Shown here one piece after another: positions 12,297 through 61,912 of a stretch of 64,000 nucleotides of DNA (positions are counted from its first letter, which is position 1; the number at the start of each line of letters is the position of its first letter). The notes beneath the pieces were generated by a model. It did not search any database, was not told where the DNA came from, and saw nothing but the letters and a program-made list of their open reading frames with translations. The stretch covers positions 1,854,001 to 1,918,000 of the forward strand of contig NZ_CP139957.1 of assembly GCF_034343125.1 (NCBI RefSeq). Direction: 5' to 3'. The translations under genes were made by a program, and so were the position numbers. This DNA comes from Caldicellulosiruptor danielii. GTDB lineage: Bacteria > Bacillota > Thermoanaerobacteria > Caldicellulosiruptorales > Caldicellulosiruptoraceae.

Positions 12297-12333
12297 CTCC
12301 TAAACCCCCTTCTTATTTTATTCACAATTTTTT

Positions 12334-12394: not shown

Positions 12395-12395
12395 A

Positions 12396-16442: not shown

Positions 16443-16541
16443 CTCCTAAACCCCCTTCTTATTTTATTCACAATTTTTTATTACCCTCCCCCTCCGCTTG
16501 ACTTATCTACTTTCTATTTTCAAGCGGAGAGGGTGGGGTAA

Positions 16542-23103: not shown

Positions 23104-23424
23104 CTTTCTACACAAACCCCCTAACCCCTCATGCTAAAAATTGTCGGATTTTATATGAATTTTAATTTTATCTGCTATAGCCACTTCACAATAAAGTTTA
23201 TCACGCAACTTGTCACACTTAAAGCAAGAAAATTTTATTTTGGACAGGAAAATTTTAAACACCTTTAAAAATAGTTTTTATCATATTACAGCAATTTTGT
23301 ATGTTGGTTATTACTTAATACGTATGTTATAGTTATTTCGTAGCTTAAAATACATCTCAGATTACACAACTTTATTTATGCAATTTTCCCATATACTTTA
23401 ATTTACCAAAATTATGTATTCAAA

Positions 23425-28800: not shown

Positions 28801-29084
28801 TTCCACTCATCAAAACTAACCCAATTCATAAGCTGTGTCCACGTATTGCCACCATCTGTACTTCTGTAAGCACCACCAATATCTGTTCTTACATAAACCA
28901 AGTTTTTTTCTTTAGGATTAAAAACTATTCCCGTAATAAAACCGCCGCCACCTTCAATTTTTACATTTTTCCAAATGTATTTTTGAGTAGCAACTGTACT
29001 CTCTGCCCTCACAGGAATGACTAAACTGTAAAGAGTTGTACACAGAAAGATAAGTCCAATAATTAACGCTATACCCCTTCGCAT
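23490..29084 (-). CDS. GH74-CBM3b-CBM3b-GH48 xyloglucanase/cellulase
   Basis: An 1864-residue secreted bifunctional enzyme. Signal peptide 1-27. GH74 domain ~30-765: two seven-bladed propellers with many Asp-box motifs ([35 protein letters not shown]) and VRTDIGG holding a catalytic Asp candidate. It cleaves xyloglucan endo-wise. CBM3b ~819-976 and ~1011-1170 bind crystalline cellulose. Pro/Thr linkers follow, then GH48 ~1233-1864, a processive cellobiohydrolase acting from reducing ends; [13 protein letters not shown] carries the general acid Glu. GH48 and the adjoining linker and CBM3b are identical to celA's. It is the last gene of the GDL run, with the leader AGAGGGGGTTAAA before ATG. Confidence 0.93.
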
Positions 29085-29356
29085 TTTAACCCCCTCTTTC
29101 TCTTTTTTTAAATAGGAAAGTATTTGAAGCTTACATGTTACATGTACAACATTACCTTCCTTTTATCACCCCACATCTGTCACTGTGTTGTTTTAGATTT
29201 GATACATTATTCTTTTTAGCAACATTTTATACTTTCGAAATGCGCTGAATCTATAATTATCTTGCAAAAAATTATAACAATATTGCTCTTAATGCACTAA
29301 CAATTGTTGGACTTTTCTTATCGCATATGCAATGTGTAAAAAAATTAGAATTTCAT

Positions 29357-35465: not shown

Positions 35466-38400
35466 TTACTTGGTACCAATTGCATTAGTTTTATACCATT
35501 GTCCCCATGGAGTTGGATTATTGGGGTCCCAATTGTTTACCATGTCCAAATACCCCACATAGCTCGAATTTCCACACCACGACCAACTAAATAATCCTAT
35601 CTTGTACTGTTTTGCATACCTGACAATAGCTTCTTCATCAGGGTCACCATCTGTGTGCTGATGTCCAAATTCCCCAATAACCAATGGCAACCCCTTATCA
35701 ACAAATGATTTGATGTATTCTTCGACCTTGCTTGCTGTATTGTATACACCATACATATGAATCGAAAATACCAAATTGCGCAGCGGATCTGCTTCCATTA
35801 TGCTCTGGGCATTATCTCTCATAGTATTAGACCAATCCTGACCCCAGTTCGGTGCATCAATCATTATCGTGTGCTTGAACCCTGCATCCCTTAGAGCCTT
35901 TATTGCATTCTTCGTGTCATTAACCCAGTTTTGATAGTTATTGTTCCCATACGGCTCATTACCGATGTTTATAATTACAAAATCTTCGTTACCGTCTAAT
36001 ACGCTCTTTATCTCCTTCCAATATTCTACTGCTTGTGCCAATGAACATGCTGCCCCGTCCTCACCATATCCTGTCGTGTCGTGAACTTCTAATACAATAG
36101 CTCTGAACCCAAGACTTCTTGACAATGATATAATATTTGCCACTTCACTTGCTGGTATCTTCGTCCATCGGTAGCCATTACTCAGCACTACCCTCACAGA
36201 ATTCATACCCCATGACCTTATTCCTTGCAATGCCGTCTCCAGTTTATCTCTGTACCAGCAATGTGCGTGATTGGTTCCTATCAATGTGCTTGTGTCAATC
36301 CTTACAACTCCATTGTTTGGAGTTGGTGTTGGTGTCGGCGTCAGTGTAGGTGTTGGAGTCGGTGTTGGTGTTACTGTTGGTGTCGGTGTCGGGGTTGGCG
36401 TTACTGTCGGCGTAGGTGTCACTGTCGGTGTCGGTGTCGGTGTTGCTGTTGGTGCTGGTGCAGGTGTCGCTCCACTCGGCTCCTGACCCCATACCAGCAC
36501 ACCATCTATATACGCCGTTACCTTCACATTCTCTCCATAACTCGTCATGCTCTGTAACCATGACCAGTCATTCCCCTGATTGTAATTGCTCCAGTCACTC
36601 TTGTTAAACCTTATCTGTATCTCTCCTGTGTCCTTCCCAGGCTGCAATTGCCCCGCTCCACTCTTAAATCCTATCTCCAAGTAATAATCCGCTCCGCTTA
36701 CGCTGCTGCTCAGCTTCACAAACTTGAATGTTACATTGCTTGCTCCTATCTGTGCCCAGTCTGATATCGCACTCTGTGCCCTGTCCCCATCTACTGTGTA
36801 CCAGTACCTTATCGTTACCCTGCTCAAATCTATACTACTGCTTCCAGTGTTCACTACCTTCAACCACGGCCTTATTGTGTTTGTCGTGCTGTTCGTCTCC
36901 TTGTTAGCATACAGTACCTTTATCTGCCCGCTTGTCGCAGGTGTGCTAATAGGTGTCGGCGTCGGTGTTGGTGTTGGAGTCGGTGTTGGTGTTACTGTCG
37001 GTGTCGGTGTCGGGGTTGGTGTCGGTGTTGAGGTTACTGTTGGTGTCGGAGTTGGTGTTGCTGTTGGTGCTGGTGCAGGTGTCGCTCCACTCGGCTCCTG
37101 ACCCCATACCAGCACACCATCTATATACGCCGTTACCTTCACATTCTCTCCATAACTCGTCATGCTCTGTAACCATGACCAGTCATTCCCCTGATTGTAA
37201 TTGCTCCAGTCATCCTTGTTAAACCTTATCTGTATCTCTCCTGTGTCCTTCCCAGGCTGCAATTGCCCCGCTCCACTCTTAAATCCTATCTCCAAGTAAT
37301 AGTCCGCTCCACTTACACTACTGCTCAGCTTCACAAACTTGAATGTTACATTGCTTGCTCCTATCTGTGCCCAGTCTGATATCGCACTCTGTGCCCTGTC
37401 CCCATCTACTGTGTACCAGTACCTTATCGTTACCCTGCTCAAATCTATACTACTGCTTCCAGTGTTCACTACCTTCAACCACGGCCTTATCGTGTTTGTC
37501 GTGCTGTTCGTCTCCTTGTTAGCATACAGTACCTTTATCTGCCCGCTTGTCGCAGGTGTGCTAATAGGTGTCGGCGTCGGTGTTGGTGTTGGAGTCGGGG
37601 TTGGTGTTACTGTCGGTGTCGGTGTCGGGGTTGGTGTTACTGTCGGCGTAGGTGTCACTGTCGGGGTCGGCGTCGGTGTCGGTGCAACCGTCACCGTCGG
37701 CGCAGGTGTTGGCGTTGAACTTGAGGATCCCTCTGGTTCTTGTCCCCACACCAGCATGTTACCTTCATAAGCTGCTATGAATTTATTTTTACTAAGTTCT
37801 TTTGTTAACCCTGCATAAGATGGGTCATTAGTTGGATCCCATGGAACGCCTTGTGGTACAGAGATCTTAAATTGAGCTTGTTTTTTGTGTTCTACTTCCC
37901 CACCTGGATATATTTTTGTTCCTGTAAAATCAACTAATATATAGTAAAGGTTTTTTGACGCATTCCATACGTATGGTCCAGATATTTTTCCACCTTCCGA
38001 ATAATATGTCTCTACTTTAACAATATCAGGACCATACCCAGCCTTGATTAACTCACTTAGGTCAATAAAATACTTAAAGTTTAAAGTATCTGTGACTCGT
38101 GGTGGCCATCCTGTTCTGTTATAAATGTATGAAATTATTTCAGTATAGTTTGCACCCTGTGAATTACCAAACTTGGATTCAACAAAAATTTCATCATTAG
38201 ATGGCTTTTCGATAGCTTTGAAATTAGGTATTGGGTCTCCTCCATACATAAGGTACATTTTTGCAAGAGCACCCACAATACCAGCATTGTAGTCACAAGC
38301 TACTTCGTTTTGTACATAGTCAGTAATATCATCATTGTAACTATCATCAGAGCCTGGTCCGCCTACTAATGCACCATAAAGTATGTGTCGATGATATTCA

Positions 38401-39641
38401 GGTATTCGCATACTGTTCGCCCATGAACTGTGTGCATTTCTGTGATGTGGATGTTGTGGATAATTTTGTCCAAATCCTACCATAAAGCTTCTTCCTGTTG
38501 AACCTAATGCATAGTTAATCTGACTCTCACCAAATTTTAGATAAGCTGTTCGCTTATTTTCTGGACATCCCGACCAATCCGCATAAACAAATGCTAAGAA
38601 AGCTGCAGTTGTAGCATACCTAAGTGAGCCCCACCCTGTTAGCCATGCAAGACCCTTTGGTGTATATGTTATGTTATATGTCCAATGATCAAGATTTCTT
38701 TCAACAGCACCTTTATACATGTCTTTATTAGTAATCTTTGCCAAAAGTAATATTGCTCCGTATCTTACATCATCCCAGCACTGTGTCCATGTATTTGTGC
38801 CACCGGCATATTCTGCCATAAGCGCCTCAGCTTTATCCAAATATGATTTGTCATTTGTCGCAAGATATAACCACACTGCCGCCCAGCCAAGATCATCAAT
38901 AAAACCACCTGATGTGTAAAAGCCGGTTGCTGCTGTATACCCTGCATCGCTACGAGTTCTATCGGCAAAATCAAAGAGTTCTATTGCATGCTGCAAATAT
39001 ATGTCTGCCTTTTGACTGTTTCTTTCACGTATAACGATTGAAGCTGCAGCTAAGGATGCTGCTGTTTCTGCAACAACTGAACTTGCTGGATTATTTAAAT
39101 CACACTTGTATGCAGGCCGTTTCATTTGCATAACTTCAGCTGGTCCCCAGAAGTTATGATCTTCAATTGGATCACCAACTTGATAGTAGTATACATACTT
39201 TGATGGATGGCATTTTACAAAGTAGTCGTTTACCCATTCTATCTGGTTAAGTATATGTTCAAGCTGGCCACTTTTCTCAAATGCTGCTTTATACTCATAA
39301 ACTGCCCACGAAAGCATTGAAGCACTGTATGACATTGGTAGATTAAACTTTACATGATCGCCTGCATCATGCCAACCACCAGTAAGATCTAAACCTACAT
39401 CTTTACCATCATTTAGACCAGAATCTCCGCGCCAGTTGTTACGGATCCATGATGGCAGTTTACCTGACATCTGAAATTCATAAAACATAATCGCTTTTTG
39501 GAGAGCTTCACCATAGTTAAAGGTTGTTGCTGCTTTTACATCACTGCTATTATATCTTGAAAATAGAAAGAAAATTTGAAAAAGAAATACTACAACAACA
39601 CACAATGTTATCCTTTTTATTGCTTTTTTTAGTTTAAGCAT
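35466..39641 (-). CDS. GH9-CBM3c-CBM3b-CBM3b-GH5 endoglucanase/mannanase
   Basis: A 1391-residue secreted enzyme. Signal/anchor 1-38; GH9 ~40-475 with [19 protein letters not shown] (Asp base pair) and [10 protein letters not shown] (acid Glu); CBM3c ~485-637, which in GH9 enzymes confers processivity; CBM3b ~692-849 and ~897-1055; Pro/Thr linkers; GH5 ~1111-1391 of the mannanase type (subfamily 8 likely), with [10 protein letters not shown] acid/base Glu and LVIGEFGHQ nucleophile Glu. The GH9 is a paralogue of celA's. The GH5 is nearly identical in DNA to the N-terminal domain of the gene at 49973-53884. It combines cellulose and mannan attack. Leader GGGGGTTAGGG before ATG. Confidence 0.93.
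35473..36281. repeat. GH5 mannanase cassette copy A
   Basis: About 809 bases matching 52917-53725 (offset 17444) with only isolated differences (e.g. GAATTC at ~36200 against GAGTTC at ~53644). Here it encodes the C-terminal domain; in the other gene it is N-terminal. Confidence 0.85.
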
Positions 39642-39883
39642 TTTTAACCCTAACCCCCTTTTTTGATTTGATAGTTAATCTTAATTAATCGTATTGGATG
39701 GCATAATTTCGAATCTTATATTTAGTTCCCACAATAAATGTTTAATAATTACTTAGTTTTTAGCCGTTTTCTATCACCCCCTTCTTCCCTTTAATTCACT
39801 TGCTTAATGACTTTAACTATGCAGTCCCCTACTGACCTTAAATTTTTCTCATATATCCACAAATTCCCATTTAACGTTTATTA

Positions 39884-44668: not shown

Positions 44669-44765
44669 CAACAACCTAACCCCCTCTCTTAAATTCAACG
44701 CTAATCAGAGACATAATATTACTTAATTCCTTCATTCTTCTTTGGAATGCCATGTCAATTTATAA

Positions 44766-44851: not shown

Positions 44852-46862
44852 TTACTGATTACCGAACAGAATTTCATATGTTGCATTAGCAATTGCTATA
44901 TCACACTGTGCCCAGAACCTGTGATATCTGAACTCCGGTACCTGCCCTGACTTGTATGCCGCCTCTAACTTCGGCCAATCAGGATCTTGTTTGTACTTGC
45001 TCCTTATGTCTATAAACTTAACTCCACTCTTTATTACATCTCCATTCGGCATCTTCCCTGTCCATCCTGCTGGAATGTATACCTCTTGCTCAAAGAACCT
45101 CTTGTAATCCGCTCTCTTCTCTGGCGCTGATAAACCTTTCTCATCCCTGTACAACTTCCACATCCTGTCCAGCAATTCCTTCGCTAAATTCTTCGCTTCC
45201 TCATCAAATACTCCGTACTTCTTCGTTGCCGCACTGTAGTACAAAAGCGCATTCGCAAGTGATGCCGTTATACCCAAATCTGTACCATAATCTACTACCT
45301 TCACATGCAAGTTCGGATTACCTGTATATGTCCCATTCCATGTGTCTGGCTGCCCACTCCAATCAAGCGTCGATGGTATCGCAAATGTACCATCACTGTT
45401 CAACTTCACTACACTCTTAATCCAGCTTACCCACTTCTCAAGCAGTGCTCCTGCATCCTTATCCCCTGTCACATAGTAATACTCCGCTACCCTCTGCATC
45501 GACCATGCCTGGAATCCAAACCATGTGTTGCTACCCGGATCCCTATACACAGGGTTCGGTTCATACGCCATCCCATAAAATGTCGCTGTCCCTGCCGGAT
45601 ATTTCTCGTACCTGCCATTCCATGAATTTGTCGCGCCTCCTGCTATCGCTCCCTCCGCTGACTGCAACCACCTGTAAAATTCTATCTGCCTCTTCAAACT
45701 CTTCGCCCAGTCACTCGCTCCGTTCGGTGACTTCGGCTTCATATCACTATCATTTGCTAACGCCCATGCAGCCATCGGATTCTGATATCCAAAGTGCGCA
45801 TGACTGCACCCTATCTTCCATGACCATGCACCATCAAGTGCTCCGCCCCATGCATAGTACCATGATAACAGATAATGTGCACTGTCATATCCTGTTCCTC
45901 CAGCCGCATTCTTGTCCTGACATCCTAATGGCTTGAAATACTTGTCAAACATCGCATACCTCAAATAGTCACCCATCTTCGCTGCCTTCGCTACATAGCT
46001 GCTTATCTCATTAAACTTACCTTGCTCCTTTGCCCATTCCTTCGCCCAGTAAGTAGCCTGAATAGCTCTCGCATCCGCATCCGGTGCGTTCGTATACCTC
46101 CACTGCTTCGAATAGTTCTGATCCTTAATAAACAGATCTAAAAATCCATTCGGTCCGCCCCATTTGAATTCCTCCCAGCTCGGATGCGGTACAGTCTCCC
46201 ATACAGACTCCTCAGGCCCTCTCTGGAACGTGTTGATAAATGATGCCCGGCTCACTCCGTCCCCTCTCTTGCCATATCCATACCAGTTGTCTACGTCCAT
46301 CAACCAGTGCATACCATACATCAATGTGCTACCATATGTGCTCACAAGCTCATTATGCAACGGATCCTTCCCAACAGGTACATTAAACTCAAGCGGCGAT
46401 GGATACTTGTCCGGTGTCTCCCACTCACCTGCATACGTCGCTGGCTTGTTAGGATCATATGACCTCATCGGCTGATCTTCAGCCGACGGTATCATATACT
46501 TCTCTAATGTGTCCCATGCCGTCTTAAACTTGCTCCAATCACCTGTTAACTTCCCATACACTGCCTCAAGCCATACATAGTACGAAAATGCTTCGCTCGT
46601 GGTCAAATGACCATAATCAGGTGCCTCGCATATCAATGTCTCTACTGAATGATATGGTATCCCATCCTGGTTAAAATACCCATTCGCAGGATCATGTATC
46701 TTGTTCCACAACCACATAAACCTCTGCCCATATTCTCCAAGACCGCTAGGTGTGCCGCTCGGTGTAGGTGTAGGCGCAACTGTCACCGTCGGCGTCGGCG
46801 TCACCGTCGGACTCGGAGTTGGTGTCGGGGTCGGCGTCGGTGTCGGTGCTGGCGTCGGGGTT
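44852..46862. repeat. GH48 cassette copy B
   Basis: GH48 plus adjoining Pro/Thr linker, matching 23490-25500 and 54039-56049 almost base for base (one difference noted: GCTATATCAC near 44895 against GCTATGTCAC). Identity stops in the linker at 46862, where GH12 coding sequence begins, and also breaks just 3' of the stop codon, unlike copies A and C. Confidence 0.85.
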
Positions 46863-49387
46863 GAATAAATTGGAGTTCCCACGTTTACAGCATAATTTGT
46901 GATCTTTACCGTAGCCTGCCCATAAAACACCTCAGTTCCAACTTCAACGCTAATTATATACTTTGATGGATTCAAACCTCTCTGATTCACCAGCCAATTT
47001 ACAAAATCCATTATATTGAAATTTGCAGTTGTAGTGCCTGTTGTTCTAACAAAAGAGTATACGTTCCAGCCAATATTGCCTTCATACACATCCCAAGTTG
47101 CTCCCGCTATATTAACTGTCGCAACCTTATTCCCCAATGGTCCTGCACCATTCCATCTATTTAGCCATATCATTATCTCATCAGTTGGAGTTGTACTCCA
47201 AGTCGGTTGGCTCGTATTAGCCAGCCAAATATCATATGCAAAATTCATACAGCTATTCTCAACACCTGTTATGCTGTAGCTAACAGTTGTATAGATACCT
47301 GTATTTGATGAAACCTGAACAGGCAACCCTGTTCCAGCGCCACAACCATCAGTCCAATGCCATCCACATACTATCGACTGATACGCTTTAACATCATAAG
47401 GATTAACATTCGGGAAATAAAAGCTCCATCCCATATCTGATTGATAAGTATTCATATCATAAGAATTAAAATATATTTTAGACCACCAGCCACTTCCAGC
47501 AAAGTTTTTTCCCCATGTATTATTGAACAAGTAATATTTATTGTTTGCAAAATATATTTTTGCATTTTCAGCCGACGACTCAATATTAGCCGGTGTAGAA
47601 GTCGGAGAAGGTGTTGGTGTTGGTGTTGGTGTTGGTGTCGGGGTCGGCGTCGGGGTCGGTGCAACCGTCACCGTCGGTGCAGGTGTCGCTCCACTCGGCT
47701 CCTGACCCCATACCAGCACACCATCTATATACGCCGTTACCTTCACATTCTCTCCATAACTCGTCATGCTCTGTAACCATGACCAGTCATTCCCCTGATT
47801 GTAATTGCTCCAGTCACTCTTGTTAAACCTTATCTGTATCTCTCCTGTGTCCTTCCCAGGCTGCAATTGCCCCGCTCCACTCTTAAATCCTATCTCCAAG
47901 TAATAGTCCGCTCCACTTACGCTACTGCTCAGCTTCACAAACTTGAATGTTACATTGCTTGCTCCTATCTGTGCCCAGTCTGATATCGCACTCTGTGCCC
48001 TGTCCCCATCTACTGTGTACCAGTACCTTATCGTTACCCTGCTCAAATCTATACTACTGCTTCCAGTGTTCACTACCTTCAACCACGGCCTTATTGTGTT
48101 TGTCGTGCTGTTCGTCTCCTTGTTAGCATACAATACCTTTATCTGCCCGCTTGTCGCAGGTGTGCTAACAGGTGTCGGCGTCGGTGTTGGTGTTGGAGTT
48201 GGTGTCGCTGTTACTGTCGGTGTCGGAGTCGGGGTTGGTGTCGGTGTCGGAGATGATGTTGTTACCCCAGAAGCTTCAATTACTGCCCAATAGGCTGGCT
48301 TCGCACTATAATCTTCAAAAAACAACAACGGCCAATCATTCTTACCGTAGAATGATCTTAACCATGAATAGTCATCTTTCAATCCCCAAAAAGTAACACT
48401 TTTTACTACATTTTTGTATTTTTTCAGCATTGTAAAAATCTCTTTGTATTTCTGAGCCTGCTTTTGAAGTAAATCCTGTGGTGGTGTGGAATAATTTTCA
48501 CTGGAACCGTAGTTGTATAGACTCATATCAAGTTCTGTAATGTGAATCTCAATACCTGGTATCGAACTAAATAACTTAATACTGTTTTCTATTTCGCTAA
48601 CAGATGGCCAGTTAACATTTATATGACATTGCATGCCAATACCATGAATAGGTATACCTTTAGATTTCAGGTTTTTTACCATGTTGTATATAAATTCTCT
48701 TTTCTTAGAAATCTCGGTATTATAGTCATTATAGAATAGCTTTGCATTAGGGTCTGCTTCATGAGCCCATATAAATGCTTTTTCAATGTACTCAGGACCA
48801 CAAATTTCATACCATGTTGAACGTCTATAACCATCTGACTGATTCTCATCGATAGCTTCATTGACAACGTCCCATGCATACACTTTCCCTTTATACCTTC
48901 CAACAACATCATAAATATATTGCTTTAGTCTTGCTAATAATGCATCTTTGGATAATCTTTGCCCATTGCTATCTTTAAAGAACCAATCAGGTGTCTGATT
49001 ATGCCAAACCAATGTATGACCTCTTATACCTATCTTGTTTGTACTCGCAAAGTCAACAAAAGCATCAGCAGTACTAAATCTATAACTTAGCCCAGTACTT
49101 GTCTGACCAGCTAATAAGCTTTCCGGCTTCATTTCATTCTCTGCCGTTATACTGTTAAAATGTTTCAATACCATTCGTTTGTCAGTATCATTGCTCAAAC
49201 ATCTTGCAGGTATTGCCACGCCTATTATAAAATCGTCTTTATAACTCTCACATAAACTTGGAATACTCCAGTCCGGCGCAGCTTGAGTTTCAACTGGAAA
49301 ATAACTTATTGCACCAACCAGAGAAATACTAACAATAAACGCTACTAATACAACTCGAGAAATAATTCTAAATAGATTTCTCTTCAT
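44852..49387 (-). CDS. GH10-CBM3b-GH12-GH48 triple-catalytic enzyme
   Basis: A 1511-residue secreted enzyme with three catalytic domains. Signal 1-37; GH10 ~38-375 ([12 protein letters not shown] acid/base Glu, [11 protein letters not shown] nucleophile Glu); CBM3b ~406-566; linker; GH12 ~602-837 with [11 protein letters not shown] (nucleophile Glu) and [12 protein letters not shown] (acid/base Glu); linker; GH48 ~881-1511 ([13 protein letters not shown]). It joins xylanase, endo-beta-glucanase and processive cellobiohydrolase activities. Most GDL enzymes carry only two catalytic domains. As I recall, this order is reported from C. danielii. Leader AGAGGGGGTTAG before ATG; the 585-base upstream region separates it from GH5-GH44. 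Confidence 0.93.
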
Positions 49388-49972
49388 TTTATCTACTAAC
49401 CCCCTCTTCTTATTTTTAAATTTTTAATTTTAAATTTTGTCAAAACAAATTGGCGACACTATTTAATTGTTCAATTTTGACACTATATGTTACCATTTTT
49501 TGAAAGCATATTTGTAATTACGAAATTCTTAATATGAGCAAAACTTTAAACAAAGGCTCTGGTGCTGCCGAATGTCTCACATCACATCGTGCAGCGTAAA
49601 CCTAAATATTTTTTCGGCTTTTATTTAAACCTATTTTCTTATGTTAATCTTATATATACCATATGTGGCACATTGACTTTATAGAATTGATCATCATTAA
49701 AAACTCAGTTACAGCTTTTTCTTCCACAGTATCTAATTTTAAAAACCTTACTTTGAAGTTATAACTCTTTTTCCAAATTTTAAAGCTTCACATTTAAACT
49801 CTCAGTCTATTTAAAATGGCAATACTCATTTGAAAATATTTCAACCTCTGTGCAAAAATACTATCAACACATTTGACACAATTCTTACATCCAAGTTACA
49901 TCACCAATTGCCACTTTGGCATTACACCAGAGCCCTCCATAAAAACCAAATTCCTTATGCTTACATTGAAAT
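49388..49972 (-). other. long intergenic region with candidate promoter and distant inverted repeat
   Basis: A TTGACA on the minus strand (plus 49438-49443) lies shortly upstream of the GH10-GH12-GH48 start, but its partner -10 is poor (TTTAAA). The decamer GGCTCTGGTG (~49555) has its exact complement CACCAGAGCC (~49926), spanning most of the region. No gene is seen. Confidence 0.4.
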
Positions 49973-52900
49973 CTAACGTAATACTATGTGATAAACCGTT
50001 AAATTTGGAACCTCAAGTGTAAATACATTGTTCTCAATATTATCTATATTCCCCATCTTCCTTACAGCTGGGCTGTTGCTGTCAAATCCATATATTTCTG
50101 CTTTTGTATATTTCGTTGTGCTTGTTATGTTTATTTTGACTTGTAATTTTTGATCATAGTTTCTGTTTATTAGTATAATATGAAGCTCAGAATCATCCTG
50201 TCCATTTATTGAGGCATATACTGGCATATTTTCAACATCACTCGTATTTGCACTTACATTTGTATTGCCATATTTTGAGCCTTTTCCATCATAATTAAGA
50301 TAAATGTTATATGCAGCTGTTGCATAACTACCAGAATCGCCCCATCTTGCCGCAAAGTACACTCCATATTTACCAAATATACCAAGTACATCTGCTAAGG
50401 CTATACCACCAGAAATATGATTTCGACCGCCATAGTCAAACTCACTTATAGCTAATTTAGTACCAGGAAAATATTTTTCAATGTCCGCTTTTATGTTTGG
50501 TATAATTGGCAGATAATCTGAAAACCACTGGTTTATCCAGCTGTTCTCACCAGCCGTAACTTGTCCTTTCACTGATGTTTTATATGTCGGGTCCCATAGT
50601 GTTCTCGGAGCTTGCATCCTAGCTATAGCAACTTCTTTTGAAGTGTCATTTTCACCATCAAAGCATATGCGAATGTTATTGCCTCGTGCTTCTGGATACC
50701 AATGTAAATCAAGCACATCCAATAGTCTTCTTCCAAAACTGTCTGATGCCTTTTTCATCTGTTCAAGATACCAGCTAATAAACCATCTGTGTTCTCCTTT
50801 AACCTGATTCCAATCAGGTGCATCCTGTAAACTATAATAACCCATAAACCCGTATGATGCATATCCAAAAACTTCAGCTGAAGGATCAAGGGTTTTTATA
50901 ACTTTTGCCAGTTCAACAGATTTATCAATCAACTCTTTGCATGTTACTTTATTAGGATGTATACGTGGATGTGTTGATGCCCACAAATCAGGCTCATTAT
51001 CCAATATATATCCTTTTATTCCAGTTGGCGATGATGCATATCCATATTTACTAATTAAATAATTTACAAACTCATCCATATAGACAAAGCTATCATTCAA
51101 ATCAGGAGTCAAAGATAGCGGACCATCCTTTTTAAATTTAACTTCTGCCCACCTGTTAGATGGAGCAGTTTCGCTTTCATTAACAGTGCCATAATTGTCT
51201 TTTGACACATAGCCAGCCATCTGCAAAGTTATAGCCGAATACGCATTATTTTTTAAGGAATACTCATGAAATTTCGATACCACAGCTGCTGGAACCTTTG
51301 CATCATCACCTGAAATTCCCATACTCCAGCATAAATAGTCATCACTTGAATGATACCAATCATTCCCTGCATTTGAGAAATTGTTTTCCCAATTATATCC
51401 TGTTAGTCTATTTCCACCTAATCTTCTTGCTGGGTGCACAACCCCCTCAATATCTTGGTTTGCACCATATATATACGGGCTAATTTGCGTTCTTCCTGCA
51501 TTTGTATTTATTGTAATTTCAACAACAGATGGAGATGGCGATATTGTCGGTAATGGTGTTACTGTTGGTGTCGGGGTCGGGGTTGGTGTTGGGGTTGGTG
51601 TCGCTGTTACTGTCGGTGTCGGTGTCGGGGTTGGTGTCGGTGTCGAGGTTACTGTTGGTGTCGGAGTTGGTGTTGCTGTTGGTGCTGGTGCAGGTGTCGC
51701 TCCACTCGGCTCCTGACCCCATACCAGCACACCATCTATATACGTCGTTACCTTCACATTCTCTCCATAACTCGTCATGCTCTGTAACCATGACCAGTCA
51801 TTCCCCTGATTGTAATTGCTCCAGTCACTCTTGTTAAACCTTATCTGTATCTCTCCTGTGTCCTTCCCAGGCTGCAATTGCCCCGCTCCACTCTTAAATC
51901 CTATCTCCAAGTAATAGTCCGCTCCACTTACGCTACTGCTCAGCTTCACAAACTTGAATGTTACATTGCTTGCTCCTATCTGTGCCCAGTCTGATATCGC
52001 ACTCTGTGCCCTGTCCCCATCTACTGTGTACCAGTACCTTATCGTTACCCTGCTCAAATCTATACTACTGCTTCCAGTGTTCACTACCTTCAACCACGGC
52101 CTTATTGTGTTTGTCGTGCTGTTCGTCTCCTTGTTAGCATACAATACCTTTATCTGCCCGCTTGTCGCAGGTGTGCTAATAGGTGTCGGCGTCGGTGTTG
52201 GTGTTGGTGTCGGTGTTGGTGTTACTGTTGGTGTCGGTGTCGGGGTTGGTGTCGGTGTCGAGGTTACTGTTGGTGTCGGAGTTGGTGTTGCTGTTGGTGC
52301 TGGTGCAGGTGTCGCTCCATTCGGCTCCTGACCCCATACCAGCACACCATCTATATACGCCGTTACCTTCACATTCTCTCCATAACTCGTCATGCTCTGT
52401 AACCATGACCAGTCATTCCCCTGATTGTAATTGCTCCAGTCATCCTTGTTAAACCTTATCTGTATCTCTCCTGTGTCCTTCCCAGGCTGCAATTGCCCCG
52501 CTCCACTCTTAAATCCTATCTCCAAGTAATAGTCCGCTCCACTTACGCTACTGCTCAGCTTCACAAACTTGAATGTTACATTGCTTGCTCCTATCTGTGC
52601 CCAGTCTGATATCGCACTCTGTGCCCTGTCCCCATCTACTGTGTACCAGTACCTTATCGTTACCCTGCTCAAATCTACACTACTGCTTCCAGTGTTCACT
52701 ACCTTCAACCACGGCCTTATTGTGTTTGTCGTGCTGTTCGTCTCCTTGTTAGCATACAGTACCTTTATCTGCCCGCTTGTCGCAGGTGTGCTAATAGGTG
52801 TCGGCGTCGGTGTTGGTGTTGGTGTCGGTGTTGGTGTTACTGTTGGTGTCGGTGTCGGGGTTGGAGTCGGTGTCGAGGTTGGTGTTACTGTCGGCGTAGG

Positions 52901-53884
52901 GGTTAGTGTAGAAGATGTACCAATTGCATTAGTTTTATACCATTGTCCCCATGGAGTTGGATTATTGGGGTCCCAATTGTTTACCATGTCCAAATACCCC
53001 ACATAGCTCGAATTTCCACACCACGACCAACTAAATAATCCTATCTTGTACTGTTTTGCATACCTGACAATAGCTTCTTCATCAGGGTCACCATCTGTGT
53101 GCTGATGTCCAAATTCCCCAATAACCAATGGCAACCCCTTATCAACAAATGATTTGATGTATTCTTCGACCTTGCTTGCTGTATTGTATACACCATACAT
53201 ATGAATCGAAAATACCAAATTGCGCAGCGGATCTGCTTCCATTATGCTCTGGGCATTATCTCTCATAGTATTAGACCAATCCTGACCCCAGTTCGGTGCA
53301 TCAATCATTATCGTGTGCTTGAACCCTGCATCCCTTAGAGCCTTTATTGCATTCTTCGTGTCATTAACCCAGTTTTGATAGTTATTGTTCCCATACGGCT
53401 CATTACCGATGTTTATAATTACAAAATCTTCGTTACCGTCTAATACGCTCTTTATCTCCTTCCAATATTCTACTGCTTGTGCCAATGAACATGCTGCCCC
53501 GTCCTCACCATATCCTGTCGTGTCGTGAACTTCTAATACAATAGCTCTGAACCCAAGACTTCTTGACAATGATATAATATTTGCCACTTCACTTGCTGGT
53601 ATCTTCGTCCATCGGTAGCCATTACTCAGCACTACCCTCACAGAGTTCATACCCCATGACCTTATTCCTTGCAATGCCGTCTCCAGTTTATCTCTGTACC
53701 AGCAATGTGCGTGATTGGTTCCTATTAACGTACTCGTATCTATCTTCACTACTCCATCATTAGATGTAGCTGCATTAACTTTTTGTAAATTCGTTACATT
53801 TGCTATAAACAAAACGTTCAATAACAAAACAACTGTACATAGTATACTCAACCATTTCTTTCCTATTTTTGTCTTTAATCTCAT
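49973..53884 (-). CDS. GH5-CBM3b-CBM3b-GH44 mannanase/endoglucanase
   Basis: A 1303-residue secreted enzyme. Signal 1-39; GH5 (mannanase type, subfamily 8 likely) ~42-335 with [10 protein letters not shown] and LVIGEFGHQ catalytic glutamates; CBM3b ~363-521 and ~568-725; Pro/Thr linkers; GH44 ~786-1303 with [11 protein letters not shown] (acid/base Glu) and [11 protein letters not shown] (nucleophile Glu). GH44 enzymes are endoglucanases also active on xyloglucan. The same architecture occurs in the C. bescii GDL, from memory. The GH5 half is nearly identical to the C-terminal domain of the gene at 35466-39641. Leader AGAGGGGGTTAGG before ATG; celA lies 154 bases upstream. Confidence 0.92.
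52917..53725. repeat. GH5 mannanase cassette copy B
   Basis: Counterpart of 35473-36281. The match ends within the first residues of the domain (near 53725) and at the domain's last codons (52917), i.e. cleanly at module boundaries. Confidence 0.85.
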
Positions 53885-53975
53885 CTTAAAGCCTAACCCC
53901 CTCTTTTTTATGCATTTTTGCCATTATACCTCATTATTTTTTGTACTATTTTTTGAACACCTCTATATAGGATTT

Positions 53976-54018: not shown

Positions 54019-56357
54019 AATTTCTATTTACCTACTCATTATTGATTACCGAACAGAATTTCATATGTTGCATTAGCAATTGCTATGTCACACTGTGCCC
54101 AGAACCTGTGATATCTGAACTCCGGTACCTGCCCTGACTTGTATGCCGCCTCTAACTTCGGCCAATCAGGATCTTGTTTGTACTTGCTCCTTATGTCTAT
54201 AAACTTAACTCCACTCTTTATTACATCTCCATTCGGCATCTTCCCTGTCCATCCTGCTGGAATGTATACCTCTTGCTCAAAGAACCTCTTGTAATCCGCT
54301 CTCTTCTCTGGCGCTGATAAACCTTTCTCATCCCTGTACAACTTCCACATCCTGTCCAGCAATTCCTTCGCTAAATTCTTCGCTTCCTCATCAAATACTC
54401 CGTACTTCTTCGTTGCCGCACTGTAGTACAAAAGCGCATTCGCAAGTGATGCCGTTATACCCAAATCTGTACCATAATCTACTACCTTCACATGCAAGTT
54501 CGGATTACCTGTATATGTCCCATTCCATGTGTCTGGCTGCCCACTCCAATCAAGCGTCGATGGTATCGCAAATGTACCATCACTGTTCAACTTCACTACA
54601 CTCTTAATCCAGCTTACCCACTTCTCAAGCAGTGCTCCTGCATCCTTATCCCCTGTCACATAGTAATACTCCGCTACCCTCTGCATCGACCATGCCTGGA
54701 ATCCAAACCATGTGTTGCTACCCGGATCCCTATACACAGGGTTCGGTTCATACGCCATCCCATAAAATGTCGCTGTCCCTGCCGGATATTTCTCGTACCT
54801 GCCATTCCATGAATTTGTCGCGCCTCCTGCTATCGCTCCCTCCGCTGACTGCAACCACCTGTAAAATTCTATCTGCCTCTTCAAACTCTTCGCCCAGTCA
54901 CTCGCTCCGTTCGGTGACTTCGGCTTCATATCACTATCATTTGCTAACGCCCATGCAGCCATCGGATTCTGATATCCAAAGTGCGCATGACTGCACCCTA
55001 TCTTCCATGACCATGCACCATCAAGTGCTCCGCCCCATGCATAGTACCATGATAACAGATAATGTGCACTGTCATATCCTGTTCCTCCAGCCGCATTCTT
55101 GTCCTGACATCCTAATGGCTTGAAATACTTGTCAAACATCGCATACCTCAAATAGTCACCCATCTTCGCTGCCTTCGCTACATAGCTGCTTATCTCATTA
55201 AACTTACCTTGCTCCTTTGCCCATTCCTTCGCCCAGTAAGTAGCCTGAATAGCTCTCGCATCCGCATCCGGTGCGTTCGTATACCTCCACTGCTTCGAAT
55301 AGTTCTGATCCTTAATAAACAGATCTAAAAATCCATTCGGTCCGCCCCATTTGAATTCCTCCCAGCTCGGATGCGGTACAGTCTCCCATACAGACTCCTC
55401 AGGCCCTCTCTGGAACGTGTTGATAAATGATGCCCGGCTCACTCCGTCCCCTCTCTTGCCATATCCATACCAGTTGTCTACGTCCATCAACCAGTGCATA
55501 CCATACATCAATGTGCTACCATATGTGCTCACAAGCTCATTATGCAACGGATCCTTCCCAACAGGTACATTAAACTCAAGCGGCGATGGATACTTGTCCG
55601 GTGTCTCCCACTCACCTGCATACGTCGCTGGCTTGTTAGGATCATATGACCTCATCGGCTGATCTTCAGCCGACGGTATCATATACTTCTCTAATGTGTC
55701 CCATGCCGTCTTAAACTTGCTCCAATCACCTGTTAACTTCCCATACACTGCCTCAAGCCATACATAGTACGAAAATGCTTCGCTCGTGGTCAAATGACCA
55801 TAATCAGGTGCCTCGCATATCAATGTCTCTACTGAATGATATGGTATCCCATCCTGGTTAAAATACCCATTCGCAGGATCATGTATCTTGTTCCACAACC
55901 ACATAAACCTCTGCCCATATTCTCCAAGACCGCTAGGTGTGCCGCTCGGTGTAGGTGTAGGCGCAACTGTCACCGTCGGCGTCGGCGTCACCGTCGGACT
56001 CGGAGTTGGTGTCGGGGTCGGCGTCGGTGTCGGTGCTGGCGTCGGGGTTGGTGTTGGTGTCGGTGTCGCTGTTACTGTCGGTGTCGGTGTCGGTGTTGCT
56101 GTTGGTGCTGGTGCAGGTGTCGCTCCACTCGGCTCCTGACCCCATACCAGCACACCATCTATATACGCCGTTACCTTCACATTCTCTCCATAACTCGTCA
56201 TGCTCTGTAACCATGACCAGTCATTCCCCTGATTGTAATTGCTCCAGTCACTCTTGTTAAACCTTATCTGTATCTCTCCTGTGTCCTTCCCAGGCTGCAA
56301 TTGCCCCGCTCCACTCTTAAATCCTATCTCCAAGTAATAGTCCGCTCCACTTACGCT
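53990..56357. repeat. GH48 cassette copy C
   Basis: Matches copy A (23441-25808) through 3' flank, GH48, linker and part of CBM3b, and copy B (44852-46862) over GH48 and linker. Confidence 0.85.
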
Positions 56358-59270
56358 ACTGCTCAGCTTCACAAACTTGAATGTTACATTGCTTGCTCCT
56401 ATCTGTGCCCAGTCTGATATCGCACTCTGTGCCCTGTCCCCATCTACTGTGTACCAGTACCTTATCGTTACCCTGCTCAAATCTATACTACTGCTTCCAG
56501 TGTTCACTACCTTCAACCACGGCCTTATTGTGTTTGTCGTGCTGTTCGTCTCCTTGTTAGCATACAATACCTTTATCTGCCCGCTTGTCGCAGGTGTGCT
56601 AATAGGTGTCGGCGTCGGTGTTGGTGTTGGAGTCGGTGTTGGTGTTACTGTCGGTGTCGGTATCGGTGTTGCTGTTGGTGCTGGTGCAGGTGTCGCTCCA
56701 CTCGGCTCCTGACCCCATACCAGCACACCATCTATATACGCCGTTACCTTCACATTCTCTCCATAACTCGTCATGCTCTGTAACCATGACCAGTCATTCC
56801 CCTGATTGTAATTGCTCCAGTCACTCTTGTTAAACCTTATCTGTATCTCTCCTGTGTCCTTCCCAGGCTGCAATTGCCCCGCTCCACTCTTAAATCCTAT
56901 CTCCAAGTAATAGTCCGCTCCACTTACGCTACTGCTCAGCTTCACAAACTTGAATGTTACATTGCTTGCTCCTATCTGTGCCCAGTCTGATATCGCACTC
57001 TGTGCCCTGTCCCCATCTACTGTGTACCAGTACCTTATCGTTACCCTGCTCAAATCTATACTACTGCTTCCAGTGTTCACTACCTTCAACCACGGCCTTA
57101 TCGTGTTTGTCGTGCTGTTCGTCTCCTTGTTAGCATACAGTACCTTTATCTGCCCGCTTGTCGCAGGTGTGCTAATAGGTGTCGGCGTCGGTGTTGGTGT
57201 TGGAGTCGGTGTTGGTGTTACTGTCGGTGTCGGGGTTGGTGTCGGTGTTGAGGTTACTGTTGGTGTCGGTGTTGGAGTCGGTGTTGGTGTCGGGGTTACA
57301 CTTGCAGTTGGTGTTGGTGATACTCCAGATGTACCTGGCTCTTCACCCCATACCTTGACATCTCCATCATATAATGGTATATATTTTGTTTTAACAACTG
57401 AACCACTAGAAACTCCCTTTATATCTTGGAATGAATAGTCGTTGGAATTATCCCACTGCACATTCTGTGGCGCTGCAATTCTGAATTGAACTTCTTTCTT
57501 ATATTTGTCTTGGCCACCTGGATAAATCAATGTGCCAGTAAAATCTACTAAAATGTAGTATATATTCTTGCTTGCATCCCATTCATAAGGTCCACTTACT
57601 TTTGCACCTTGATTATAATTGGTACTCAATGTTAACTGATTAGGCGAATACCCAGCTTTAATTATTTCGCTCAGGTCAATAAAATACTTAAATTTGAGCT
57701 TATCTGTTGCTCTTGCGGGCCAACCACTCTGATTATTAACAATCGCCTTAATTTCAATAAAGTTTGTTCCAGAAGCATTTATACCAGCTTCAACAAAGAA
57801 CTCGTCATTTGTTGGTGTTTCAATGGCTTTGAAGTCAGGTATTGGATTTCCACCATATAATAAGTACATCTTTGCCAATGCACCAACAAATCCTGCGTTG
57901 TAGTCACAAGCTACCTCATTATTCACATAGTTGCTAATGTCATCTGTATAGCTATCATCAGAGCCTGGACCACCAACAAGCGCTCCATATAATGTATGTC
58001 TATGATATGAAGGTATACTCTGGCTGTCTGCCCATGAGCTATGAGCAGTTCTGTGATGTGGTCTCTTGGGCGGATTTGTACCAAATCCTACAACAAAACT
58101 TCTTCCGGTTGAACCCAATGCATAATCTATCTGGCTTTCTCCGAATTTTCTATATGTTTCTTTTTTGGTGCTTGGGCAACCAGACCAATCGCTATAAACA
58201 AATGCTAAAAACGCTGTAGTTGTTGCATATCTCAAAGAACCCCATTGATCAAGCCATGCTAATCCTTTCGGAGTATACTTTATCCTTTCGCCGTTGTACC
58301 CTGTAGTCCAGTAATCTAAGTGACTCTCAATAATTTGTTTGTAAGTATCCTTGCCGGTAATTTTTGCTAACAATAATGCTGCTCCATTGTGAACATCATC
58401 CCAGCAATGAGCCCACTTGTAGTCAATTGTGTTACTACCTGAAATTTTTGGCCAATTTTGAACATATGACTCAGCTTTTGTTAGATATGTTGAATCATTT
58501 GTTGCCAAATACAACCAAACTGCTGCCCAAGAAAGCTCATCATAGAAACCGCTCCATGAATTATAATATCCATTTGCTGCCGTGTAACCAGAATCGCTTT
58601 TTGTCACTTCTGCAAACTCATATAAATCTTTTGCATGTTGCAGATATGTTGCTGCTTTAGTCGGATTTCTGTCTTTTAAAACAATTGAAGCTGCTGCTAA
58701 GGAAGCTGCTGTCTCTGCTACTACCGCAGAACCTGGACTGCTCTGGGTGACCTTAAATGAAGGTCTCTCCATTTGCATAACCTCAGCAGGACCCCACCAT
58801 GCATGATCTTTACTTCCATCTCCAACCTGGTAATAGTATACATATTTGCTTGGATGACATTTTACAAAATAATCGTTAACCCACTCGATTTGGTTTAAGA
58901 TATGTTCTAATTGGCCACTCTTAACAAACGCGTCTTTGTACTCGTATACTGCCCATGACAACATTGTGCCAGTATACGACATTGGAAGGTTAAATTTGAC
59001 ATGATCACCTGCATCGAACCATCCACCAGTTAGATCAAGTCCATTGTCTTGACCATCCTTTAATGCTGAATCACCACGCCAGTTGTTTCGTACCCAACTA
59101 GGAAGTTTACCAGACATCTGAAATTCGTAAAACATGATAGCTTTTTGTAAAGCTTCTCCATAGTTAAACGAACCAGCTCGAACCTCCTGCCATGGTTTAA
59201 CCCCATATACCACTCCCAAAACAAATATAAAGATTACAACCATGGCAATAATTCTTCTGTAACGCTTCAT
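54039..59270 (-). CDS. celA: CelA-type GH9-CBM3c-CBM3b-CBM3b-GH48 cellulase
   Basis: A 1743-residue secreted multimodular cellulase, close to the length of C. bescii CelA. Signal 1-33; GH9 ~34-480 with [19 protein letters not shown] (catalytic Asp pair) and [10 protein letters not shown] (acid Glu); CBM3c ~485-640; CBM3b ~698-855 and ~888-1046; Pro/Thr linkers; GH48 ~1112-1743 with [13 protein letters not shown]. It couples endo-processive GH9 with reducing-end exo GH48 and is the main enzyme for crystalline cellulose in this genus. It is first in the GDL run. A promoter (59309-59337) lies close upstream, and a c-di-GMP riboswitch with its own promoter lies further upstream. Leader GAGGGGGTTAG before ATG. 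Confidence 0.95.
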
Positions 59271-59308
59271 AAATCTCTAACCCCCTCATTCAATTTATTT
59301 CAGTTTTA

Positions 59309-59337
59309 ATTATATAACTAAAATGCGTATAAGCCAA
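59309..59337 (-). promoter_or_regulatory. candidate celA-proximal promoter
   Basis: TTGGCT (-35, four of six) and perfect TATAAT (-10), spaced 17 bases, about 40 bases before the celA ATG. It would allow celA expression independent of the upstream riboswitch. Confidence 0.6.
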
Positions 59338-59629
59338 TTGATTTTTTTTGTCTAATTTGTTTGTTTAATTGTCAAAAATGCAGTACACCCTATATACTTT
59401 CTGTTCCTTAGATGCGCTTATATTTCTGATATTTCTTTTTATTGTAAAATTATAGCACAAATGTTTCTAATAATTTGTATTTTTTTGCCCTATTGGAGGT
59501 CAAAAAAATACAACATGATATTTAGTTTCTAAATGAAAACTAAACAAATTTGTTCTATGTAGAAATAATTGTTATATTTTATTGATTAAATTAGGAAGTG
59601 AATAAAACTTTTTTTTGATTATACAAAGT

Positions 59630-59666
59630 TAAATATTGGCTGCCGAGCAATGGCAGCCAATATTTA
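59630..59666. repeat. 15-bp perfect inverted repeat in the celA leader
   Basis: Arms TAAATATTGGCTGCC and exact complement with a 7-base loop. No T-tract follows on either strand, so it is either an RNA structure or an operator-like site. It lies between riboswitch terminator and celA promoter. Confidence 0.6.
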
Positions 59667-59775
59667 ATGTAAGATATGTTAAAAGAGGGGGTTAGGGGAT
59701 AGCTTTCTTCAGCGTTACAGAAGAATATACATGAATTTAGAATAACTTAATTTCTTTTAAATTTTTCATATATAC

Positions 59776-59810
59776 TAAAAAAAAACGGCGTCTTGCCAGA
59801 CGCCGTTTTC
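59776..59810 (-). terminator. strong terminator directly after the celA-upstream riboswitch
   Basis: On the minus strand AACGGCGTC and GACGCCGTT surround a 6-base loop, followed by at least eight U. It is the expression platform of the riboswitch at 59838-59936. Confidence 0.9.
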
Positions 59811-59837
59811 AACCACTCCTCAAGTATTTCACACCTC

Positions 59838-59936
59838 GAGTAGTTTCGGCAGCCTGGCAACCATAGGAAGTTTTTCTTCCGACAGGCCCATGGCTTTGCG
59901 CCCCTGCCTTTCGACAGGTTTGCCTTTTCGACTACC
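59838..59936 (-). ncRNA. cyclic di-GMP-I riboswitch (GEMM) upstream of celA
   Basis: On the minus strand: GGCAAACC, CGAAAG tetraloop, GGGGCGCAAAGCCATGGG, variable hairpin, GCCAGGCTGCCGAA, closed by P1 (GTAGT/ACTAC). The core is nearly identical to the element at 4112-4225. A consensus promoter lies ~45 bases upstream and a strong terminator ~30 bases downstream. The next gene in this direction is celA, ~505 bases after the terminator. The released P1 strand ACTACTC could pair with GAGTGGT just before the terminator, a possible alternative structure. Confidence 0.92.
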
Positions 59937-59981
59937 CACTTTCTATTCAATTTTTCTATATTTTATCTTTTTATATAAGGA

Positions 59982-60010
59982 ATTATATCATTAACTCAGT
60001 AATTTGTCAA
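59982..60010 (-). promoter_or_regulatory. perfect sigma-A promoter for the celA-upstream riboswitch
   Basis: TTGACA (plus 60005-60010) and TATAAT (plus 59982-59987) with 17-base spacing on the minus strand, a full consensus match, placing the start of transcription just before the aptamer. Confidence 0.88.
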
Positions 60011-60815
60011 CTACTTTTTCAACTTGGACCTCGAATAGGTGTGAAGATATTTACCACAGCGAAAGAATGTGCGAAAATAGTGAGGAGAAGGTCATAAAAA
60101 GAATAGAGGCTGCCTCCATCCCCACATGAATATAATTAGAAAGTGTAATCTCCCATTCAAAAGAAACATTCAAAAACTACCAGGATGAGAGGACAGTTGC
60201 CTGTGTATGTTATTATACCAAATCCATAAACTCAAGAATCTTTTTAAAAACAAGAAAAGTATTTCGAAAAGTGACAGGTAGAAAATAACAAAAGCATATT
60301 TAAAACTTCTAAAAAATTAGGTATATTAAAAACACTCTGTAAGAAAAGCTATATATTGTCCTTCTGAGGATAAGTCCAAAAAACTTTCTTCTGACCTCGA
60401 AAATCTCATTATTGAAAAACCTATAAGAACTCCCATAGAAAATATAGGCATTTATCCTTTCTATCTTTTCAGAAAATGTAGTATCAAAATAACCAAAAAT
60501 ACGATAAAATTTATTCTCAAACGAAATGCTGTTCCCTGGAAAAAAAAAGATTGTGTAAAAGTAGGTCTATATAATAATCTTTCATTCTATTTTTTATGTT
60601 GAACTTTGGTGCATAATAATTAAACAATGATAACTTCAAAAGATGAAAACGAACATATAAAAATATAATTTAGCTTGCAAAGAATAAAAAAAGATATATA
60701 TAGTAACAAGTGCAATATTTGCAGCTAACCTTCAGTACACCACTAATTGCTTTTAGTTTATGTTTATATTTCGGGTTTCTTGAATATTGTCACCGTAATT
60801 CTCGCAAATGTAAAA
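60011..60815. other. decayed region without intact gene
   Basis: No complete gene. About 60335-60600 (plus) reads as a ~85-codon open stretch in one frame with plausible composition (KSKKLSSDLENLIIEKPI, IENIGIYPFYLFRK) but no start, suggesting a gene remnant of unknown family. Confidence 0.35.
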
Positions 60816-60892
60816 AATGAACGGGAGGACACCATTCGCAAAGTTTTTAATTAAAAACTTTGGTCTCCTCCCCTCAATTCATTTTCCTATTT
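60811..60892 (-). terminator. terminator of the NHL-repeat gene
   Basis: Long imperfect hairpin. Outer arms AATGAACGGGAGGAC (60816-60830) and its near-complement (60863-60883) enclose an inner palindrome AAAGTTTTTAATTAAAAACTTT. A U-run follows on the minus strand. Confidence 0.7.
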
Positions 60893-60988
60893 CAGTATGC
60901 ATGGTAAACACAAGTCTTCAACATATAACAATTTTAATCATTTAATAATTTAATCATTTTCTTAGAGAAAACCATTACTTGCGCTTCA

Positions 60989-61912
60989 TTATTTGTTAAA
61001 CACAATTTTCACTATTCTGCTGTTATACGTATCTGCAACTATAATATTCCCTTTTAAGTCAAAACACACACCAGTTGGATAATTCAAATTGAATTTGTTT
61101 TTCTCATTTTTGCCCCAAGTATAAGCTTTTCTCATCTTTGTAGAATATAAAATAACTCGATGGTAATCAGTATCCGTGATAGCGATATTCACGCCACTCT
61201 GATCTATTGCAATACCTAATGGGTGATGAAGTTTAAAATAATTGCCTATTTTGTTATATATATTTACTACATTACCTTTCTGGTTTATAACAACAACCCT
61301 ATTGTTTCCACTATCAGCTACATATAGATTTCCAGCTGGATCCACAGCAATACCGCGAGGGAAGTTCAATTTATCTCCTTTTATATTTAATTTTGTTATT
61401 TCAGACACAAATTGCCCTTTACTGTTGTATTTAACAATTTTACTTAGTGAATAATCACTAACATATATATAACCTTTTCTATCTACAGCAATTCCCATAG
61501 GAGTCTGTAATTTACCGCGTTTTACTTTAACTTTTTCCCATGAAGCAAGCCACTTACCATCTGGTGATAACTTTACTAATCTTGAATTTCCAGTATCTGC
61601 TACATATATATTGCCATTCTTATCGCAGGTAACTGCTGCAGGGTATGAAAACTGATTTTTCTGATTACCCTTCATTCCAATTGAAAAAACTTTCTTACCA
61701 GTAGGATCAAATTTCATTATTCTGCAATTATCTGTATCAGCTACAATTATAAACCCCTTTGAATCAACTGCCACGCTGTTTGGCAAACGCAAAACCTCAT
61801 TTTTGCCCTTAGATGGTATAATTTGGCTCACACTTGCAAATGCAAAAACTGATGTTAGCAAAATAGTTACGCATACAAATAAATACATAGTGACAAAAAT
61901 AAGTCTTTTCAT
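60989..61912 (-). CDS. secreted NHL-repeat (six-bladed propeller) protein
   Basis: A 307-residue protein with a signal peptide (~1-27, cleavage after FAFA) and about five to six NHL repeats of ~45 residues: PNSVAVDSKGFIIVADTDNCRIMKFD, PAAVTCDKNGNIYVADTGNSRLVKL, PMGIAVDRKGYIYVSDYSLSKIVKY, PRGIAVDPAGNLYVADSGNNRVVVI, PTGVCFDLKGNIIVADTYNSRIVKI. NHL propellers bind proteins, peptides or sugars. No catalytic residues are evident, so a surface binding or scaffold role is the best guess. It is a single-gene unit with its own terminator; AGAGAGGGGGT precedes the ATG. An IS remnant lies directly upstream. Confidence 0.85.
   Translation of the reverse strand: MKRLIFVTMYLFVCVTILLTSVFAFASVSQIIPSKGKNEVLRLPNSVAVDSKGFIIVADTDNCRIMKFDPTGKKVFSIGMKGNQKNQFSYPAAVTCDKNGNIYVADTGNSRLVKLSPDGKWLASWEKVKVKRGKLQTPMGIAVDRKGYIYVSDYSLSKIVKYNSKGQFVSEITKLNIKGDKLNFPRGIAVDPAGNLYVADSGNNRVVVINQKGNVVNIYNKIGNYFKLHHPLGIAIDQSGVNIAITDTDYHRVILYSTKMRKAYTWGKNEKNKFNLNYPTGVCFDLKGNIIVADTYNSRIVKIVFNK

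Follow-up and report, generated by a model that had tools for sequence, protein, structure and literature searches.

What does a c-di-GMP riboswitch control when it stands upstream of a cellulase gene, and does the signal raise or lower the output? The question is raised by a 64,000-nucleotide stretch of the genome of Caldicellulosiruptor danielii, a hot-spring bacterium (hereafter, the window) that carries the glucan degradation locus (GDL) gene celA (54039–59270, minus strand), whose product has the Pfam architecture GH9-CBM3-CBM3-CBM3-GH48. GDL enzymes drive Caldicellulosiruptor cellulose breakdown; in a detailed regulon study, the locus yielded no dedicated regulator (PMC8579813). A sequence-only reading of this DNA had described a promoter, a GEMM aptamer and a terminator reading toward celA, and had proposed that c-di-GMP sets the read-through that feeds celA and possibly the whole GDL.

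Each of the three parts is present on the minus strand at the place described. The distal promoter of the riboswitch RNA, TTGACA-17-TATAAT (59982–60010), is a 12/12 match and the only such site within 58800–61000; related leaders also keep promoter-like sequence in the alignment. A covariance-model search, which had been put forward as a check, matched Rfam family c-di-GMP-I-GGC (RF03167) at 59844–59933 with 70.8 bits, above the gathering score of 59, spanning the full model (positions 1–80) with E-values of 9.7e-15 for the whole window and 5.3e-17 for a 351-nt stretch. Downstream lies a conserved intrinsic terminator with its T run (59773–59810), the hairpin of which (59810–59781) has 13 pairs, 6 of them G-C, and a long T run 3′. 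Predicted folds couple the aptamer to this expression platform, with the terminator opposed by a competing antiterminator built from the aptamer 3′ strand. Judged by sequence, the c-di-GMP riboswitch in the celA leader is complete, its own promoter and terminator included.

The claim that no intact gene intervenes was also borne out: between 59776 and the celA ATG (59270), a distance of about 505 nt, no open reading frame of 60 or more residues starts. The sole such frame near this gap, a 67-residue TTG-initiated one at 59950–59747, overlies the aptamer. A lost reading frame between terminator and celA was considered and rejected; none was found, and conservation there is limited to a block, a hairpin and proximal boxes, described below. 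The sequence-only reading knew of no published description for the genus, and we likewise found none on riboswitches and celA in open-licence papers.

The direction of the switch was approached through predicted folds. With polymerase at 59796–59792, the best fold pairs 59860–59847 with 59805–59793. The first of these strands, UUGCCAGGCUGCCG (59847–59860, minus strand), is the aptamer 3′ strand and the first half of the proposed antiterminator; the second half, CGGCGUCUGGCAA (59793–59805, minus strand), overlaps the terminator 5′ arm and loop and is supported by the predicted fold and by loop conservation. In the full-length RNA, aptamer and terminator form together, and constrained energies at 37 °C, computed ligand-free, were −68.9 kcal/mol for the terminator state and −64.3 kcal/mol for the antiterminator state; this 4.6 kcal/mol advantage of the terminator in the ligand-free full RNA would leave the antiterminator as a kinetic state. 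In the terminator loop, UGGC is invariant across the seven celA leaders compared here and the bases after it vary, while CUGGC recurs in the terminators of tapirin and up154 leaders, though the stems differ. The antiterminator cannot form with a ligand-bound aptamer, and the element is therefore predicted to act as a transcriptional OFF switch.

Conservation of the leader was examined in a genus set of 12 genomes, eight with a GDL and four without GH48, all 12 of which carry at least one c-di-GMP-I-GGC aptamer. The leader comparison suggested by the sequence-only reading came out in its favour, with the arrangement kept in seven of the eight GDL genomes (G000, G002, G003, G006, G008, G009 and G011); in these, the aptamer ends 561–613 nt before the celA start, and the alignment gives the same order of promoter, aptamer, terminator and block. 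The eighth GDL genome, G007, has no aptamer near its GDL. Mean pairwise identity among the seven celA leaders alternates along the sequence, from 0.98 in the aptamer and 0.88 in the terminator to 0.63 in the post-terminator spacer, then 0.96 in the block at 59726–59681, 0.58 in the next spacer, 0.85 in the hairpin and 0.98 in the proximal box. The G003 leader departs from its relatives in one half only: its promoter/aptamer region resembles that of the other riboswitch leader in the same genome (alignment score 97.5 over 150 nt) and scores only 28.5 against the G000 celA leader, yet it retains the celA-type terminator and block despite the differing sensor half. With the sensor replaced and the output the same, this swap suggests selection for c-di-GMP control.

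The block, ATTCTTCTGTAACGCTGAAGAAAGCTATCCCCTAACCCCCTCTTTT (59681–59726, minus strand, 46 nt), is conserved more strongly in the seven leaders than any other element between terminator and proximal box, and its sequence is antisense to the start of celA. Its first 16 nt (59726–59711) are perfectly complementary to celA codons 2–7 (59251–59266, minus strand); a search of the window allowing up to three mismatches returned two sites only, the block itself and celA. Its second half (59702–59681) is an anti-Shine-Dalgarno sequence, the reverse complement of the celA Shine-Dalgarno (SD) GAGGGGGTTAG (59277–59287, minus strand) over an 11-nt SD match. The predicted duplex between block and celA start has an energy of −48.9 kcal/mol; against a slightly shorter celA target the value was −45.7 kcal/mol, compared with a mean of −19.7 and a best of −34.5 kcal/mol for shuffled blocks. 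The celA SD is GAGGAGG or AAGGAGG in four of the seven genomes, leaving one or two mismatches to the block. A conserved hairpin follows 3′ of the block (59629–59667, minus strand) with a 16-pair stem, a weak U tract, two compensatory changes in G002 and mismatches at the same pairs in G006; it could form the 3′ end of a short RNA.

Complementarity to the C-rich half of the block extends to the SD of every one of the six multidomain GDL glycoside-hydrolase genes, each on the minus strand. Beyond celA, exact copies of GAGGGGGTTAG serve the GH5/GH44 gene 49973–53884 (SD at 53893–53903, pairing −33.0 kcal/mol), the multidomain gene 44852–49387 (49396–49406, −31.9 kcal/mol) and the GH10/GH5 gene (44676–44686, −31.2 kcal/mol); the listed TTG start of the last, 44698, precedes the SD, so the true start must lie further in. 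The SD of the GH9/GH5 gene 35466–39641, AAGGGGGTTAG (39650–39660), holds the exact AGGGGGTTAG core and pairs at −29.3 kcal/mol, and that of the CelF-like gene 23490–29084, GAGGGGGTTA (29087–29096), pairs at −38.9 kcal/mol, with the pairing extending into the first codons. The cellulose operons of C. bescii are published as celA1-celB1-X-celA2-celB2-celC and celF; by position and domains, celA and the CelF-like gene, for which the predicted pairing is strongest, correspond to the first genes of these operons.

Genome-wide and background controls were used to gauge how specific these matches are. The core AGGGGGTTAG has six occurrences in the 2.82-Mb genome, of which five are SDs of GDL genes and the sixth is the block's antisense copy; the reversed pattern, used as a control, has seven, so the count itself is ordinary and the striking part is the concentration in one locus. 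With one mismatch allowed, the longer motif AAGAGGGGGTTAG has nine sites, seven of them in the GDL or its leader. Among 283 background genes taken from 18 stretches of 20 kb of the same genome, block pairing with gene starts had a mean of −19.0 kcal/mol (sd 4.5), whereas the six GDL genes span −29.3 to −45.7 kcal/mol, a range reached by 5 of the 283, and the value for the CelF-like gene is equalled by none. The best background pairing is −37.0 kcal/mol and a few unrelated genes pair nearly as strongly; the C-rich half resembles any anti-SD. GGTTAG lies near the start of five of the six GDL genes and of one of the 283 others (Fisher 2e-9). We conclude that the block contains a conserved seed matching several mRNAs, the six GDL SDs, above expectation.

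Two simpler origins of the shared SD were rejected. A generic G-rich SD of the region fails since non-CAZyme genes inside the GDL (−12.7 to −20.1 kcal/mol) and the NHL gene match poorly, and since only 13 of the 283 background genes carry GGGGG near the start and only one carries GGTTAG. Recent duplication of gene starts also fails to explain the motif because the flanks of the six SDs are not alike upstream, where likeness is at the shuffled level; downstream it is slightly above.

Across the genus, riboswitch, anti-SD seed and target SDs co-occur. In each of the seven leader-riboswitch genomes, the SD motif is present exactly once in antisense, in the celA leader, and between two and five times in sense orientation in the GDL. 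It has zero copies in the four genomes without GH48, and the GDL of G007, where the leader riboswitch is missing, also lacks it. Separately, upstream of an AraC-type regulator gene in the window (20734–23115, minus strand), a sequence TGAGGGGTTAGGGGGTTTGTGTAG near 23115 (minus strand) pairs with the block at −35.0 kcal/mol; it contains a start codon immediately followed by a stop.

Taken together, a model for the celA leader emerges. Aptamer, promoter, terminator, competing fold, conserved block, genome-wide specificity and co-occurrence with the SD motif are computed features, and on these we lean, narrowly, toward an OFF riboswitch that gates an antisense anti-SD RNA and thereby derepresses GDL translation at high c-di-GMP. 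At low c-di-GMP, aptamer strand 59860–59847 would pair with the terminator 5′ arm and loop at 59805–59793; with the antiterminator formed, polymerase would pass the terminator and transcribe the block. The block RNA would pair with the celA SD and first codons and so block ribosome loading, and would pair likewise with the unusual SD common to the other GDL glycoside-hydrolase genes. Its action may be in trans, as a short RNA whose 3′ end might lie near the hairpin 59667–59629, in cis on celA messages started at the distal promoter, or both. At high c-di-GMP, the bound aptamer would free the terminator, the block would not be made, and GDL mRNAs from their own promoters would be translated. 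Production of the RNA, repression by it, the polarity and its trans action on several genes are what we infer from the computed features. For the strongest form of the model, in which a trans RNA silences the whole cellulase locus via a dedicated SD and attachment signalling releases cellulose degradation by double negation, we put the chance somewhat below even. As background, c-di-GMP has been measured in the genus, with low levels in pure C. saccharolyticus and C. kronotskyensis cultures and higher ones where biofilm forms.

The model has to be set against the sense-leader account of the sequence-only reading, in which c-di-GMP governs the amount of sense mRNA read through into celA and possibly the GDL; on that account the block would be incidental. 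One part of that account stands: the device adjoins celA in seven genomes, on the same strand, with promoter and terminator in order and its position before celA conserved. Any read-through RNA, however, would carry an antisense copy of the celA start, and it is this antisense element that is best conserved between terminator and proximal box. When the region from aptamer into celA was folded as a single transcript, the SD was paired with the block at a probability of 0.67–1.00 in all seven genomes; since the block occupies the celA SD in this fold, read-through should repress celA. The distal promoter would give celA a 5′ UTR of ~700 nt, and a C. bescii 5′-end mapping study, which mentions no riboswitch, puts the maximum 5′ UTR length of carbohydrate-use operons at 329 nt; such a maximum would fit celA transcription mainly from a proximal promoter. 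The simple sense-leader account is probably wrong in both mechanism and direction, and we regard it as quite unlikely; the read-through RNA would be expected to serve poorly as celA mRNA and could act as a repressor. As for the second promoter that had been placed nearer celA, the candidate TTGGCT-17-TATAAT (59309–59337, minus strand) is a 10/12 match, and such matches occur in the region at chance frequency (13 found, 10.8 expected), although conservation around the candidate is strong. A conserved TATAAT at 59449–59454 (minus strand) in the alignment is a candidate proximal −10 element. A box TTTTTGACAATTAAACAAACAAATTAGACAAAAAAAATCAATTG (59358–59400, minus strand) before celA is 98% conserved in the seven genomes and is likely a promoter or regulator site; it was not found before the CelF-like gene.

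The other readings accept the block or its motif and assign them different work. Were the block to act in cis only, it would disable or slow its own distal-promoter celA transcript, and the other GDL genes would share the SD for another reason; the SD–block pairing in the one-transcript fold of every leader, together with the extra 16-nt match specific to celA, speaks for this, but it leaves unexplained the matching SD at five other GDL genes and its absence from G007, and there would be little point in a promoter whose only product is celA mRNA that cannot be translated. We judge this reading unlikely. Alternatively, the shared GAGGGGGTTAG may be a DNA site for an unknown GDL regulator, placed at gene starts and once inverted in the leader, and a published regulon study proposes unknown GDL regulators and describes unnamed motifs before celA1 and celF. 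Yet the motif lies at the SD position of each gene and is neither palindrome nor repeat, and the leader copy extends to the 16-nt celA codon match with a different spacing (14 versus 10 nt); RNA pairing therefore suits these features better than a protein footprint, and among the readings the DNA site has the slimmest chance. Scarcely more probable is the same RNA under opposite polarity, an ON switch in which c-di-GMP favours read-through and the signal represses the GDL. For it speak the folds, computed without ligand, in which the full-length RNA favours the terminator; against it, the antiterminator consumes aptamer strands, so that a bound aptamer excludes it, and tapirin and up154 leaders retain this strand match.

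Besides the celA-leader aptamer (59933–59844), the genome holds two further c-di-GMP-I-GGC aptamers, at 4218–4120 of the window and 5.9 kb further upstream of celA. The riboswitch at 4120–4218 (minus strand) precedes a 154-residue predicted secreted protein without a Pfam match (3568–4032) and, among the neighbouring genes 377–5475, sits between a GAF-GGDEF gene (2300–3505) and a class III nucleotide cyclase gene (4363–5475). The third riboswitch (L031:11711–11800, minus strand) is directly upstream of a probable tapirin gene and has an OFF-type aptamer–terminator competition; its predicted sign is opposite to that of the GDL, for with the same polarity as the celA leader the tapirin gene would be off at high c-di-GMP, which is awkward beside a GDL that is on. 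The idea that the tapirin leader carries the same antisense block was rejected, as the block is absent there. In six of the seven leader-riboswitch genomes, another aptamer precedes a probable tapirin gene, assigned from its position after type IV pilus genes; published work places tapirin genes directly upstream of the GDL. In G008, the riboswitch is followed by a tapirin gene (L036:7189–11301) that two inserted open reading frames, transposon-like by eye, have broken into fragments. Two genomes have riboswitches (L038:8905–8994 and L039:9459–9547, minus strand) with AACTCC(N)TATATGGAGTT repeats near the SD, which suggests translational rather than terminator control; these precede a secreted protein of ~330 residues. 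Elsewhere in the window, 10941–18515 holds tandem pectate-lyase-type genes, with identical 2073-bp units at 12396 and 14469, a unit at 16542 with 56 differing positions and a related 451-residue gene next to it; the tandem units may reflect recent amplification or an assembly effect.

The preferred model, in which the riboswitch gates the anti-SD RNA, would make the block RNA a specific candidate GDL regulator, tying cellulase output to an attachment signal. If it is true, riboswitch-gated antisense RNAs would be extended from single targets to coordinated locus control, with the SD sequence itself as the address, and removal of the 46 nt should raise C. bescii cellulase synthesis, an engineering handle.

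Within the genus, the up154-type and tapirin riboswitches belong to the same c-di-GMP-I-GGC family and share with the celA leader the competition between aptamer strand and terminator arm; unlike the celA leader, they lead straight into a gene that has an SD of its own, and they lack an antisense block. In Firmicute sRNAs such as RsaE/RoxS, a C-rich single-stranded element pairs with the G-rich SDs of several mRNAs. To our knowledge, such sRNAs have no riboswitch in front, and we know of no dedicated SD for them that is common to one gene cluster. The open-licence papers searched described neither a locus-specific SD address spanning several genes nor a cellulase as target. The kind to which the celA-leader RNA would belong, riboswitch-gated antisense RNA, is already known. 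In Listeria monocytogenes, the antisense RNA AspocR is regulated by a vitamin B12 riboswitch, and ligand binding stops transcription early so that the target-silencing RNA is not made (PMC7968456). The celA leader likewise places a riboswitch terminator 5′ of an antisense sequence in one unit, with extensive complementarity to the target mRNA. The two differ in that AspocR responds to B12 and lies opposite pocR, its only target (PMC7968456), whereas the celA-leader RNA lies upstream on the same strand, has a c-di-GMP sensor and matches a target sequence common to several genes. The Clostridioides difficile antisense RNAs RCd11 and RCd12, listed under c-di-GMP-I riboswitches (PMC11477304), share the association of a c-di-GMP-I aptamer with an antisense RNA; they are antitoxins of type I toxin-antitoxin pairs, whereas the predicted targets of the celA-leader RNA are cellulase gene starts.
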